This document shows positions 11,967 to 19,095 of a DNA stretch of 64,000 nucleotides, piece after piece. This DNA is from Achromobacter sp. Marseille-Q4962 (GTDB taxonomy: Bacteria; Pseudomonadota; Gammaproteobacteria; Burkholderiales; Burkholderiaceae_B), in the NCBI RefSeq assembly GCF_943737005.1, contig NZ_CALSFU010000003.1, positions 124,001 through 188,000 on the forward strand, written 5' to 3'. Every line of letters begins with the position of its first letter. Position 1 is the first letter of the stretch. The position numbers were made by a program, and so were the translations under genes. The notes under the pieces are model-generated. The model had not been told where the DNA came from, did no database searches, and saw nothing but the letters and a program-made list of their open reading frames with translations.

Positions 11967-13031
<1,065 letters not shown>

Positions 13032-13134
13032 GTAGTGTCCTGTCTGTGGCTGTCAGTAGCGTATCAGTCGCGTTCAGTCGCGTAGGGGAGTGCGGAGAAA
13101 AAGCGCGGGCGCGGGTGCGCGCGGCGCAACGCAG

Positions 13135-13180
13135 GTGCAGATTATGGCATCGGATTGTACTGTACAAAAAACCAGTGTGC
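13135..13180 (-). promoter_or_regulatory. recA promoter with LexA (SOS) box
   Basis: On the minus strand the sequence CTGG-N8-ACAG (13175-13160) differs by one base from the LexA consensus CTGT-N8-ACAG. It overlaps a -35-like TTGTAC, with a CATAAT/TAATCT -10 region about 16 bases further (around 13147-13142). This arrangement, with the operator over the -35 about 130 bases before recA, fits SOS repression. Confidence 0.7.
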
Positions 13181-13271
13181 CAGGATTTTCCACGTATACC
13201 CTGAGTGGCAAGGCGCCTGCCATATGCCAGAATCCCCGGGAGATTCCGGCGTTTCGCCCCTTTTTTCTCCC

Positions 13272-13961
13272 ATGCGTATCCTCATCGCTGAAGACGACAG
13301 CATCCTGGCCGACGGCCTGTCGCGGTCGCTGCGCCACAACGGCTATGCCGTGGACGCGGTGCGCGACGGGCTGGCGGCCGATTCGGCGCTGGCCGCGCAG
13401 GCTTTCGACCTGCTCATCCTCGACCTCGGGCTGCCCCAGCTCGCCGGGCTGGAAGTGCTGCGCCGGCTGCGCGCCCGCAATTCCGCCCTGCCCGTCCTCA
13501 TCCTGACGGCCGCCGACAGCGTCGAGCAGCGGGTCAAGGGCCTGGACCTGGGAGCGGACGACTACATGGCCAAGCCATTCGCGCTGTCCGAGCTGGAAGC
13601 GCGCGTGCGCGCGCTCACCCGCCGCGGCGCGGGCGGCGGCGGCACGGTGATCAAGCATGGCCGGCTGGTGTTCGACCAGACAGGCCGGGTGGCCATGGTG
13701 GACGACCAGACGCTGGACCTCTCCGCGCGCGAAGTCAGCCTGCTCGAGATCCTCCTGACGCGCAGCGGCCGCATGGTCAGCAAGAACCAGCTCGTGGACC
13801 ACCTGTGCGAATGGGGCGAGGAAGTCAGCACCAACGCCATCGAAGTCTACGTGCACCGCCTGCGCAAGAAGCTGGAGCCCAGCGGCGTGAAGATCATCAC
13901 GGTGCGCGGGCTGGGATACTGTCTTGAGCGCGACCAGGGTGCCGCCTACCTCGCGAACTGA
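13272..13961 (+). CDS. OmpR/PhoB-family response regulator, TctD-like
   Basis: A 229-residue two-domain regulator. The receiver has the acidic pocket 'IAEDD' and phosphoacceptor Asp51 ('LLILDLGLP'), then 'LTAAD' and the Lys in 'DDYMAKPF'. The C-terminal winged helix is clear ('[13 protein letters not shown]', '[14 protein letters not shown]', '[11 protein letters not shown]'). The frame extends 39 codons upstream, but 'MRILIAEDD' at 13272 is the normal family start. The histidine kinase gene overlaps its 3' end. Together with the kinase type this resembles the TctD/TctE pair that controls tricarboxylate uptake. Confidence 0.92.
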
Positions 13962-15453
13962 AGCGCAGCCGCCCGAAGCCCTGAACCAGGAGGCGCTGGA
14001 CGTCATGCGGGCCGGCGCCAAGGGGCCCAGCTTCGCCCCGCCGCAACGCTCGCTGCTGGGCGAGATCCTCGACTGGATGCTGGCGCCGCTCTTCCTGCTG
14101 TGGCCCATGAGCGTGGCCATTACCTATGTGGTGGCGCAGAACATCGCCAACGTGCCCTACGACCGGGCGCTGGCCAACAACCTGCACGTGCTGACGCGGC
14201 AGGTGCACGCCCAGGACGGACGCGCCGTGCTGCGCATGACGGACGCGGCGCGCGACGTGCTGCGCGCGGACGAGACCGACAGCGTGTTCTGGCTGGTGCT
14301 GGGCAGCCGGGGCGAATACCTGGGCGGCGACCGCGCCCTGCCGCTGCCCGCCAGTGTCGGCCAGCCCCGTCCGGACGAGGTCCAGTACGAAGACGACACC
14401 CTGCGCGGCTTCGGCGTCCGGCTGGCTTACACGTGGGTGGACCTCAACCTGCCCCACACGCAACCCGCGCTGGTGATCGTGGCCGAGACGGTGGAGAAGC
14501 GCACCCAGCTCGCCAACGACATCATCAAGGGCGTCATCATTCCGCAGTTCGTGGTGCTGCCCATCGCGGTGCTGCTGGTGTGGTTCGGCCTGTCGCGCGG
14601 CGTGGCGCCGCTCAATGCGCTGCAGCAGCGCCTGCGGGCGCGCCGCCCCGACGACCTCTCGCCCATCGACGAGCGCGCCGCGCCCTCGGAGATCGCGCCG
14701 CTGGTCAGCGCCATGAACGAACTGCTCGACCGGCTGTCGGCCAACGTGCAGGCCCAGCGGCGCTTCGTCGCCGACGCGGCGCATCAGCTGAAGACGCCGC
14801 TGGCCGGGCTGCGCACCCAGGCGGAACTGGCCCTGCGCGACGCCAGCCCCGAGGAAATGCAGTCCAGCCTGCGCCAGCTCGTCACCGGCTCGGAACGCGC
14901 CACCCGCCTGGTCAACCAGCTCCTGCTGCTGGCGCGCGCCGAAAACCCCAGCGCCATCGGCATGACCGAAACCGACCTCAACGCGGTCGCGTCCGAACAG
15001 ACTTCGCACTGGGTGCCCATGGCCCTGTCGCTCAATACCGACCTCGGCTTCGAGGGATCGGACACGCCCGTGCTCATCAACGGCAATCCGCTGCTGCTGG
15101 CCGAGCTGCTGAACAATCTGGTGGACAACGCGCTGCGCTACACGCCGCGCGGCGGCCACATCACCGTCCGGGCGGCGCTGGTGGACGGACGCGGCGTGCT
15201 GGACGTGGAAGATTCGGGCCCGGGCATCCCGCCCGAAGAACGCGAGCGCGTGTTCGACCGCTTCTACCGCGTGCTGGGCACGCAATCCGACGGCAGCGGC
15301 CTGGGACTCGCCATCGTGCGCGAGATCGCGCAGAAGCACCAGGCCAGCGTGCAGATCAGCGCGCACCCGACCTCGCACTCCGACCTGCCGGGCACGCGCA
15401 TCCGCGTCACCTTCCCGCCCTACCGGCCCGCTTCCGGCGCCTGGGACGCATAG
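13924..15453 (+). CDS. Sensor histidine kinase, TctE-like
   Basis: A membrane sensor kinase of about 509 residues. It has a first transmembrane helix near residues 50-70 and a periplasmic domain of about 120 residues of the two-component sensor N-terminal type seen in TctE. A second helix ('[16 protein letters not shown]') and a HAMP-like linker follow. The phosphoacceptor is His287 in '[13 protein letters not shown]', and the ATPase motifs are '[10 protein letters not shown]', 'DSGPGIP' and '[13 protein letters not shown]'. The start is uncertain: TTG 13924 overlaps the regulator by 38 bases, and ATG 14005 is preceded by AGGAGG. It forms an operon with the response regulator. The MHS transporter downstream is a plausible target. 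Confidence 0.9.
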
Positions 15454-15698
15454 ACTGCAACGCCGGGGCGCGTACGCGCCGGACCCGCCGCCCGGGCCGG
15501 CAGCCTCGCGCGGCCCTAAGGATTATCCCTAGCTTCTCCCGCTGTTATAACATTTTGTTTCAAATTTAAGATTCAGGTAAGTCTCTCGTCAGAACCTCGT
15601 CAGCCTCGTTCCCTACCTTGCCGTTAGCTCGATGTCGGTCCAGCCGGCGGAGGGTAGAGCACGGCGCACGAGCGCCGGCCATAAAACGAGGAGACATC

Positions 15699-17375
15699 AT
15701 GAGCACAGCAACCATGACAGACCGCGGTCCATCCGCGGGTCCGCGCCCCATGACCAAGGATGAACGCCGCGTCATTTTTGCGTCGTCGCTGGGCACGGTG
15801 TTCGAGTGGTACGACTTCTACCTGTACGGCTCGCTCGCGGCCATCATCGCCCAGCACTTCTTCTCGGGCGTGAACCCCACGGCGGCCTTCATCTTCGCCC
15901 TGCTCGCCTTTGCCGCCGGCTTCGCCGTGCGCCCCTTCGGCGCACTGGTGTTCGGCCGCCTGGGCGACCTGGTCGGGCGCAAATACACGTTCCTGGTCAC
16001 CATCGTCATCATGGGCCTGTCCACCTTCCTGGTGGGCGTGCTGCCCAGCTACGCCAGCATCGGCATCACCGCGCCGGCGGTGCTGATCATCCTGCGCCTG
16101 CTGCAAGGCCTGGCGCTGGGCGGCGAATACGGCGGGGCCGCCACTTACGTGGCCGAGCATGCGCCGCATGGCCGCCGCGGTTTCTATACGAGCTGGATCC
16201 AGACCACCGCGACGCTGGGCCTGTTCCTGTCGCTGCTGGTGATCCTGGGCGTGCGCTCGTTCATGGGCGAAGACGACTTCAAGGCCTGGGGCTGGCGCGT
16301 GCCGTTCCTGATCTCCGTGGTGCTGCTGGGCATCTCGGTGTGGATCCGCATGCAGCTCAACGAGTCGCCCACCTTCAAGCGCATGAAGGAAGAAGGCAAG
16401 GGCTCCAAGGCGCCCATCGCCGAGTCCTTCGGCCAGTGGCGCAACCTGAAGGTCGTGCTGCTCGCGCTGCTCGGCCTGACCGCCGGCCAGGCCGTGGTCT
16501 GGTACACCGGCCAGTTCTACGCGTTGTTCTTCCTGACGCAGACGCTGAAGATCGATGCCAACACCGCCAACATCATGATCGCGGTGGCGCTGCTGATCGG
16601 CACGCCGTTCTTCGTGATCTTCGGCGCGCTGTCCGACAAGATAGGCCGCAAGCCCATCATCATGGCGGGCTGCCTGATCGCCGCGGTGACGTACTTCCCG
16701 ATTTTCCAGGGCCTGACGCACTTCGCCAACCCCGCGCTGGAAAAGGCCCAGGCCTCGGCGCCGGTCACGGTGATCGCCGATCCGGCGACCTGCTCCTTCC
16801 AGTTCAACCCGGTGGGCACGGCCTCCTTCACCAGCTCCTGCGACGTGGTCAAGTCCTTCATGGCCCGCAACTCGGTGAACTACAAGAACGAGGCCGCGCC
16901 GGCCGGCGCGATGGCCAAGGTGAAGATCGGCAATGACGAGTTCGCCTCCTTCGACGGCAAGAGCCTGCCGCCTGCCGAGTTCAAGGCCAAGGCCGCCGAG
17001 CTCGACAAGGCCCTGACGGCCGCCATCCGCAGCCACGGCTATCCGGCCAAGGCCGATCCCGCCCAGACCAACCAGGTCATGGTGGTGGTGCTGCTGACCA
17101 TCCTGGTCATCTACGTGACCATGGTGTACGGCCCCATCGCCGCGATGCTCGTCGAAATGTTCCCGACCCGCATCCGCTACACCTCGATGAGCCTGCCCTA
17201 TCACATCGGCAACGGCTGGTTCGGCGGCTTCCTGCCCCCGGTCGCCTTCGCCGTGGTGGCCGCCACCGGCAATATCTACGACGGCCTGTGGTATCCGATC
17301 ATCATCGCGGTCATGACCCTGGTCATCGGCACGCTCTTCCTGCGCGAAACCAAGGACAACGACATCAACGCCTGA
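15699..17375 (+). CDS. MHS-family major facilitator transporter
   Basis: A 558-residue inner-membrane transporter of the metabolite:H+ symporter branch (relatives ShiA, KgtP, ProP). Signatures are 'GTVFEWYDFYLYG' at the first helix, 'GRLGDLVGRKYTFL', 'RLLQGLALGGEYGGAATYVAEHAP', and 'DKIGRKP'. About 110 residues of soluble sequence with two Cys interrupt the second half, between helices near 'FPIFQGLTHF' and 'VMVVVLLTILVIYV'. This makes the protein longer than the usual 430-450. The ATG at 15699 has GAGGAG at a good distance. The substrate is probably a carboxylate, but that is inferred. A strong terminator follows. Confidence 0.9.
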   Translation: MSTATMTDRGPSAGPRPMTKDERRVIFASSLGTVFEWYDFYLYGSLAAIIAQHFFSGVNPTAAFIFALLAFAAGFAVRPFGALVFGRLGDLVGRKYTFLVTIVIMGLSTFLVGVLPSYASIGITAPAVLIILRLLQGLALGGEYGGAATYVAEHAPHGRRGFYTSWIQTTATLGLFLSLLVILGVRSFMGEDDFKAWGWRVPFLISVVLLGISVWIRMQLNESPTFKRMKEEGKGSKAPIAESFGQWRNLKVVLLALLGLTAGQAVVWYTGQFYALFFLTQTLKIDANTANIMIAVALLIGTPFFVIFGALSDKIGRKPIIMAGCLIAAVTYFPIFQGLTHFANPALEKAQASAPVTVIADPATCSFQFNPVGTASFTSSCDVVKSFMARNSVNYKNEAAPAGAMAKVKIGNDEFASFDGKSLPPAEFKAKAAELDKALTAAIRSHGYPAKADPAQTNQVMVVVLLTILVIYVTMVYGPIAAMLVEMFPTRIRYTSMSLPYHIGNGWFGGFLPPVAFAVVAATGNIYDGLWYPIIIAVMTLVIGTLFLRETKDNDINA

Positions 17376-17423: not shown

Positions 17424-17448
17424 AAAGCTCCGCGAGGAGCTTTTTTTT
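17424..17448 (+). terminator. Rho-independent terminator of the MHS transporter gene
   Basis: Stem AAGCTCC/GGAGCTT with a short loop and eight T residues, 50 bases after the stop codon. A GC-rich hairpin precedes it. Confidence 0.88.
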
Positions 17449-17589
17449 GCCCTCCGGAGCATGGCGGCCGGCCCGGGGCAAGACGCAACGCCCGCCCCGT
17501 TTTTCATGACGCCGGATTCAGGACGATGTCAGACCCCCAGGGCTAGACTGGCAGCTCAGATTACGGCCTTGCGCCATATCGACCGGCTA

Positions 17590-17721
17590 CTGATCCCCCT
17601 GCCGGACGATTGCAGGGCTGGTCCTCTGACACCGATACCGCGTTCCCCGCGAGCCTTTTATGACGCGGTATTGCGTGCTCCCGTAGCGGCCCGGCCCCAA
17701 CAGCCGGGCCGTCTTTTTTTT
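17590..17721 (+). ncRNA. Candidate structured small RNA with its own terminator
   Basis: No reading frame is apparent on the plus strand, yet three hairpins occur in series: CCCTGC/GCAGGG (17597-17617), ATACCGCG/CGCGGTAT (17635-17671), and CGGCCCGGC/GCCGGGCCG (17687-17711). The last is followed by TCTTTTTTTT, a textbook terminator. The nearest upstream gene already has its own terminator at 17448, so this second one has no gene to serve. The 5' end is unknown; a TAGACT element near 17542 could be a -10. The remainder of the 17376-17825 gap holds nothing else recognisable. Confidence 0.45.
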
Positions 17722-17825
17722 GCCGCCCGGCCGCGGCGCAAAAAAGCCTCCCTCGGGAGGCGGCGAAGCGCGGCGCACGGCCCCGGAGCCCGGAACCGAC
17801 GCCAGCGGAAAACCTCCGGCCCGTT

Positions 17826-18044
17826 TCAGCGGCGCATGCCCAGGCCGATCACCAGCACGCCGGCCACGATGGCCGCCACGCCGGCCCAGCCCGGAATCGC
17901 CACCGATTTCTCGGTTTCGGCCGTGGCCTTCACCGAGCCGATCTGCAGCACCGTTTCCTCGGATTTGTAGTTAAAGCCCTTGTACGCCAGCGCGGCGACG
18001 CCCAGCGCGATCAGCACGGCGCCGATCAGGGTCGAGATTTTCAT
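17826..18044 (-). CDS. Small two-helix membrane protein
   Basis: A 72-residue protein with a helix at residues 4-20, a polar middle segment of about 25 residues ('KGFNYKSEETVLQIGSVKAT'), and a second helix near the C-terminus, ending 'GLGMRR'. It resembles a widespread group of short conserved membrane proteins with no assigned role; DUF3185 is one such family but I cannot confirm membership. The ATG has no same-strand neighbour upstream and faces away from rdgC, so it is probably monocistronic. Confidence 0.75.
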   Translation of the reverse strand: MKISTLIGAVLIALGVAALAYKGFNYKSEETVLQIGSVKATAETEKSVAIPGWAGVAAIVAGVLVIGLGMRR

Positions 18045-18195: not shown

Positions 18196-19095
18196 ATGTG
18201 GTTCAAGAATCTCAAGATCTACCGCCTTTCCTCGCCGTGGACGCTTACCGGCGAGCAGCTTGAAGACACGCTTGCCCGGCACGCCTACCAGGCCGGCAAC
18301 AACCTCGAAATGCAGAGCCTGGGCTGGGTGCCGCCGCGCGAAAATGGCGGCCTGGCGCACGTGGTCGGCGGCCAGATCCTGCTTACGCTGCGCGCGGAAA
18401 AGAAGCTGCTGCCCGCCACGGTGGTGAACCAGGTCGCCAAGGCCCGCGCCCAGGAAATCGAGGAGCAGCAGGGCTACAAGCCCGGCCGCAAGCAGATGAA
18501 GGAAATCAAGGAGCGCGTCACCGACGAGCTGCTGCCGCGCGCCTTCAGCGTGTATCGCGACACCCGCGTCTGGATCGATCCGCAGAATCACTGGCTGGTC
18601 ATCGACGCCGCCGCCTCGGCCAAGGCCGACGAAGTGATCGGCCTGCTGGCCAAGTGCGTGGATCCGTTCCCGCTCGAGAATCTCTACGTCGCCCAGTCTC
18701 CCGCCTCGGCCATGACCGGCTGGCTGGCCGAAGACGAAGCCCCGGCCAACTTCAGCATCGACCAGGACACCGAGCTGCGCGCCTCGGGCGAAAGCCGCGC
18801 CGCGATCCGCTACGTGAAGCACGCGCTGGATCCGGACGACGTGCGCCGCCACATCCAGTCAGGCAAGCAGTGCACCCGCCTGGCCATGACCTGGGCCGAC
18901 CGCATCTCGTTCGTGCTGACCGAAGGGCTGGACATCAAGCGCGTGGCGCCGCTGGACGTGCTGAAGGAAGGCAACGACACGGTCACGCAGAACGACGACG
19001 AGAAGTTCGATTCCGACATGATGCTCATGACCGGCGAGCTGGCCAAGATGATGGCCGAGCTGGTCGAAGCCCTGGGCGGGGAAAAACGCGTCTGA
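18196..19095 (+). CDS. rdgC: Recombination-associated protein RdgC
   Basis: A ring-shaped DNA-binding protein that limits RecA access to DNA. The 299-residue product begins '[11 protein letters not shown]', the conserved opening of RdgC. It contains 'LGWVPPRE', '[17 protein letters not shown]', '[17 protein letters not shown]' and '[11 protein letters not shown]', all family features. Length is standard. It is monocistronic, with GC-rich repeats of GGCCGCCC just after the stop (19120-19180) that can fold as a 3' hairpin. Confidence 0.96.

Follow-up and report, generated by a model that had tools for sequence, protein, structure and literature searches.

The window, a stretch of 64,000 nucleotides from the 4.9-Mb draft genome of Achromobacter sp. 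Marseille-Q4962, contains, in this order, recA (11967-13031, minus strand), a response regulator gene (13272-13961, plus strand), a histidine kinase gene (13924-15453, plus strand), a gene for an MHS-family metabolite/H+ symporter (15699-17375, plus strand), the terminator of the MHS gene, a candidate small RNA (17556-17721, plus strand), a gene for a protein of 72 aa (17826-18044, minus strand) and rdgC (18196-19095, plus strand). The response regulator demonstrated Response_reg and Trans_reg_C domains (Pfam) and was TctD/PmrA/QseB-like, with best NCBIfam scores of 251.8 (TctD), 220.5 (PmrA) and 201.8 bits (QseB), all below the equivalog cut-offs; it was 74%-97% identical in relatives. Its partner histidine kinase contained 2CSK_N, HisKA and HATPase_c domains. 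The MHS symporter scored 370 bits against NCBIfam TIGR00883, under the cut-off of 443, and contained an additional long stretch between its two halves, at about residues 345-455, beyond the coverage of the family models. This gene had been described as having a terminator of its own, in agreement with a gene end at 17375 and a terminator-like hairpin at 17424-17443. The 72-aa protein appeared membrane-protein-like and yielded no matches in Pfam or NCBIfam at 1e-5; its gene is convergent with the small RNA and adjoins rdgC in most relatives.

An alignment of 80 relatives revealed a conserved block from 17517 to 17721, sharp at both edges and with unconserved flanks. The block consists of a promoter block (17517-17549) and an RNA of about 166 nt, whose 5′ end (about 17556) was placed by the position of the −10 element and the start of the closing helix. 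The earlier note had put its candidate at 17530-17721; the end at 17721 agreed, while the start moved to 17517 for the conserved block and to about 17556 for the RNA itself. The RNA matched a covariance model derived from alignment A1, which comprises 44 diverse sequences, over positions 1-167 with 163.8 bits.

The predicted fold of the 166-nt RNA had an energy of −77.2 kcal/mol versus −53.3 ± 4.3 for shuffled sequences (z −5.57), whereas the opposite strand reached only z −2.73. The minimum-energy and centroid structures coincided, and both corresponded to the consensus. RNAalifold, applied to the 44 sequences of alignment A1, yielded a consensus of 39 pairs, 26 of them with two-sided changes. 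When 65 relatives were aligned to the model, two-sided changes were found at 33 of the 39 pairs and 92.7% of cells were paired; this alignment leans partly to the model by construction, and the MAFFT alignment A1 yielded the same helices. None of 500 shuffles reached the observed value on any measure in the 65 relatives, and sliding of the helix partners reduced pairing to 35%-44%. Covariation thus establishes the structure.

The structure comprises a 5′ hairpin domain, a central hairpin and a terminator. The 5′ domain (17556-17629) is formed by three helices (17556-17560/17625-17629, 17565-17571/17613-17619, and 17579-17584/17604-17609), and all 18 of their pairs demonstrated two-sided changes. 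Its C-rich apical loop, CTGATCCCCCTG, occupies 17590-17601, and the C-rich segment of this first loop, GATCCCCCTG, was among the most conserved unpaired stretches. In the central hairpin (17630-17677), 13 of 15 pairs covaried and 94.7% of cells were paired; its loop motif CCCCGCGAGC (17645-17654) was invariant in the 44-sequence alignment. A conserved, mostly single-stranded linker, TGCTCCCGTA (17676-17685, from alignment A1 and the conservation profile), leads to the intrinsic terminator (17686-17721), composed of a stem (17686-17695/17703-17712) and T8 (17714-17721). The terminator helix was paired in 95.9% of cells in the 65 relatives, and the strong terminator reported previously is real. 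Terminator-like sites numbered 8 in the region versus 1.8 expected.

Compensatory changes had been proposed as a check on three stems, and two of these were borne out, namely the terminator and ATACCGCG/CGCGGTAT (17635-17642/17664-17671), which is part of the strongly covarying central helix. The third stem, CCCTGC/GCAGGG (17597-17602/17612-17617), was rejected; its letters are present, with 69.8% of cells paired in the 65 relatives, no better than shuffles and without covariation. GCAGGGC pairs with GGCCTTG (17565-17571) instead of CCCTGC.

BLAST of the intergenic region detected the RNA as a single copy in 42 of 43 Achromobacter genomes, with matches of about 200 bases at 82%-88% identity. 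The remaining genome, 57% complete, yielded only a short terminator-like match. With the covariance model, about 115 of the 250 genomes from the wider family were found to carry the RNA, nearly always as one copy each; the model count of 116 was taken as 115 since an overlapping weak pair in genome G090 looks spurious. All strong matches (≥100 bits) among 300 genomes of the order fell within the same family, and named relatives bearing the RNA were mainly Achromobacter and Bordetella; exact-pattern matches among named genomes came from Achromobacter, Bordetella, Candidimonas and Allopusillimonas species. Outside the family, the best match in these 300 genomes was 27.9 bits and nothing was convincing; the CCCCGCGAG loop was absent from all fetched out-of-family match loci, and relatives beyond the family were rejected on both grounds. 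Loss of the stems in relatives, which the earlier note had named as evidence against a small RNA, did not occur. What had been proposed as an orphan terminator marking a candidate small RNA was found to be a single-copy, strongly covarying, family-wide element with a promoter block and a terminator of its own. The sequence evidence that 17556-17721 represents a real small RNA family, uncatalogued in Rfam, is now strong.

The promoter block begins with a box (17517-17532) of two half-sites, TTCAG (17517-17521) and GTCAG (17528-17532), 11 bp apart, in the layout of sites for the OmpR/PhoB family. The −10 element TAGACT (17544-17549; TAGAAT in many relatives) lies 11 bp past the box and is conserved at a fixed spacing. 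No canonical −35 or sigma-70 promoter was found at the RNA by a sigma-70 scan. OmpR/PhoB-family activators typically use tandem sites with an 11-bp period that lie about 10 bp upstream of a −10 element and take the place of the −35, and the RNA promoter has this arrangement. A TCAG-type tandem box preceded the RNA in all 65 relatives at near-constant spacing, with a −10 of the form TA-N-(A/C)-(A/C)-T, and the pattern TTCAG-N6-GTCAG-N10/11-TAGA(C/A)T was found in essentially all of them. The distance from the box to the −10 was 10-11 bp, and that from the −10 to the 5′ end of the RNA 6-7 bp, in 60 of the 65.

The exact box and −10 pattern was found 34 times in 13 Achromobacter genomes and not once with a reversed control. 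The matches fell into recurring classes, including the RNA, an FtrA/P19-like operon and an EntS-like exporter. The operon, in which a gene for an FtrA/P19-like periplasmic iron protein is followed by one for an EfeU/Ftr1-like permease (Pfam Iron_transport and FTR1), carried the box in all 13 genomes sampled (in this genome, L270:8405-9039 and onward). The EntS-like MFS exporter gene (L240:1501-2778) carried it in 7 of 13. Upstream of the MHS gene, a box of the same kind, GTCAG-N6-GTCAG-N10-TACCTT (15588-15619, plus strand; box at 15588-15603, −10 TACCTT), was retained in 58 of the 60 distinct upstream regions, compared with 0.05% of shuffles and none on the reverse strand. The regulator gene itself was not preceded by any box conserved in relatives. 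The box at the FtrA/P19-like operon suggests a common iron-related regulon. A SorA-type sulfite dehydrogenase gene (L271:6959-8191; NCBIfam above cut-off) was preceded by TTTAG-N6-GTCAG-N11-TAGGCT, a case confined to this genome within the sample.

The RNA was compared with known families and with small RNAs described elsewhere. Rfam 15 yielded no match in the RNA region at the gathering threshold, and the best sub-threshold match was 16.1 bits against a gathering threshold of 35. Matches to Betaproteobacteria_toxic_sRNA (RF02278, 14.8 bits against 50), ncS54 (RF02871, 12.5 against 43) and suhB (RF00519, 15.4 against 41) were at chance level and covered the central hairpin and terminator. A tRNA/tmRNA search of the region found nothing. 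The earlier note had not recognized the RNA as 6S, tmRNA, SRP or RNase P RNA. Known RNA families were rejected, with Rfam empty at both gathering and relaxed thresholds. Xanthomonas sX13 is a highly structured small RNA that acts through its C-rich loops to repress mRNAs bearing G-rich motifs close to the start codon (PMC3771888). The present RNA is likewise highly structured with C-rich loops, but differs in lineage, length and loop sequence and carries a response-regulator-type promoter box. S17 (CT_433) of B. pertussis is located between BP3151 and coq7 (BP3152), is driven by a sigma-A promoter that includes a −35, and undergoes processing to a length of 67 nt (PMC11722255, PMC12235514). 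It shares with the present RNA a C/U-rich conserved segment, a strong terminator and the same bacterial family, and S17L is about 190 nt; the present RNA, however, lies beside DUF/rdgC, with the MHS and rdgC clusters as neighbors, has no canonical −35 and shows conservation along its entire length. The bpr RNAs of B. pertussis are also intergenic Bordetella small RNAs, verified by Northern blot (PMC3110155), but no bpr locus fits: in the relative L062 the RNA lies between two convergent genes, one CoA transferase-like and the other the small protein gene by rdgC, whereas the only convergent bpr locus is that of bprN, beside BP3748 (rpoH). Identity with bprA-N, S17/CT_433, CT_521 or CT_532 was rejected, since their locations do not fit. 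No earlier description of the RNA was found in the literature searched, although supplementary or unpublished RNA-seq transcript lists could contain it.

We consider it fairly probable that the RNA is a stand-alone, trans-acting small RNA that is activated by a response regulator and targets G-rich ribosome-binding sites with its C-rich loops. It has several features of a trans-acting small RNA, namely its own promoter, an intrinsic terminator, an intergenic position, the lack of coding capacity and compensatory changes. An OmpR/PhoB-family regulator, most likely the product of 13272-13961, would use the tandem TTCAG-N6-GTCAG box as a binding site that substitutes for a −35 and would activate transcription from the TAGACT −10; we infer binding by this adjacent regulator because of its proximity. 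The transcript would then fold into the forked 5′ hairpin domain, the central hairpin and the terminator, and would serve as a repressing arm for the regulator, beside transporters that the regulator would activate. The enterobacterial small RNAs OmrA/B and MgrR are activated by the response regulators OmpR and PhoP, respectively. The proposed circuit follows the same logic, in which an OmpR-family regulator activates a small RNA as its repressing arm; there is no relation to OmrA/B or MgrR in sequence or in Rfam, and the activator of the present RNA is a presumed one. The most conserved unpaired segments of the RNA were C-rich (CCCCC, CCCCGCGAGC and GCTCCC); their likeliest partners are mRNAs with a G-rich region around the start of translation, which such pairing would repress. 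By analogy with the C-rich loops of sX13, the RNA would be expected to inhibit translation by annealing to ribosome-binding sites, possibly with the involvement of Hfq.

The RNA lies downstream of the MHS gene and on the same strand, here and in most relatives, as a back-up terminator or a 3′ UTR fragment of that gene would. Such an origin is very improbable, however, as the MHS gene has its own terminator, the orientation of the RNA was inverted relative to MHS in four loci (L068, L074, L076 and L077), the RNA was found beside unrelated genes in five others (L081, L084, L086, L089 and L092), and its promoter block was retained everywhere, traveling with the RNA in every rearranged locus. Because it is inverted or relocated relative to MHS and the promoter block moves along, the RNA constitutes, from an evolutionary viewpoint, a separate transcription unit, and an MHS 3′ UTR or back-up terminator, the latter foreseen as an objection in the earlier note, was rejected. 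Nor is it credible, beyond a trace of a chance, that the region is a short coding gene or a dual-function RNA with a small peptide. The region had been described as free of any ORF; a mechanical ORF of 169 aa (17461-17970, plus strand) does span it, and short TTG-started ORFs recur in close relatives, but no ORF was shared among relatives. The best-ORF search gave 36 different outcomes among 65 sequences, and in 43 of 64 relatives the net length difference from the window sequence was not divisible by 3. A coding gene was rejected, since most length changes break any frame and there is no common ORF.

Less readily dismissed is the alternative that another OmpR/PhoB-family regulator, a paralog encoded elsewhere, drives the small RNA and that the adjacent two-component system is a mere neighbor. 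This is possible because the regulator gene has no conserved box and 12 small RNA-bearing genomes have no close kinase homolog at the cut-off; the box is also found at distant loci (the FtrA-like operon, the EntS-like exporter and, in this genome, the SorA-type gene), and 11-bp tandem sites are used by many PhoB-family regulators. Against it, the MHS gene directly 3′ of the kinase has the same kind of box, and even in rearranged lineages the distance between kinase and RNA remains in the range of tens of kb (about 12 kb in genome G131 and about 35 kb in G084). A close kinase homolog was present in 103 of 115 small RNA-bearing genomes versus 63 of the remaining 135 in the family, a difference confounded by phylogeny. 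On balance, we regard a paralogous activator as rather unlikely. RisA was rejected as the activator, since its ChIP motif, GTTACA (PMC11019879), differs from the box. There is a small chance that the RNA acts by protein binding, as a 6S-like RNA or a CsrA sponge, and not by base pairing. Its high degree of structure and the invariance of CCCCGCGAGC across 44 diverse sequences could also be explained by a protein site. In addition, when the sequences immediately before ATG codons in 13 genomes were searched for 10-11-nt stretches perfectly complementary to the three C-rich segments, no base-pairing target recurred except between two closely related genomes, and two of the complement matches were the RNA's own locus on the other strand. 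This outcome also counts against the base-pairing reading. Protein binding is disfavored, however, by the lack of an Rfam match to 6S or CsrA-binding families, the lack of a conserved GGA motif in the loops, and a three-domain shape that contrasts with the single long hairpin of 6S.

With activation by the adjacent response regulator as the favored reading, the boxes may tentatively be grouped into a hitherto unnamed regulon under two-component control in the Achromobacter/Bordetella family, in which a TctD/PmrA-like regulator would act through one shared TTCAG-N6-GTCAG box on the MHS symporter, the ferrous-iron operon, the EntS-like exporter and the small RNA. If so, metal or organic-acid uptake would be coupled to post-transcriptional repression. 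Few small RNAs in the Achromobacter/Bordetella group, which includes important opportunists and pathogens, have known regulators, and this work adds to the group a well-supported family that Rfam 15 does not contain. The shared promoter box ties the RNA to specific genes and a specific candidate regulator, and the circuit is directly testable because of this link.

Two further observations were made around the two-component system. In the relative L062, the RNA and the kinase gene were about 12 kb apart, and the MHS gene was missing beside the RNA. In this genome, the recA/regulator intergenic region (13032-13271) contained repeats of GTCAG, ATCAG and TTCAG, which were not conserved in relatives. 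This gap of about 240 bp resembles, in size and gene orientation, the gap between BP2546 and BP2547 of B. pertussis, which yields bprE (PMC3110155).
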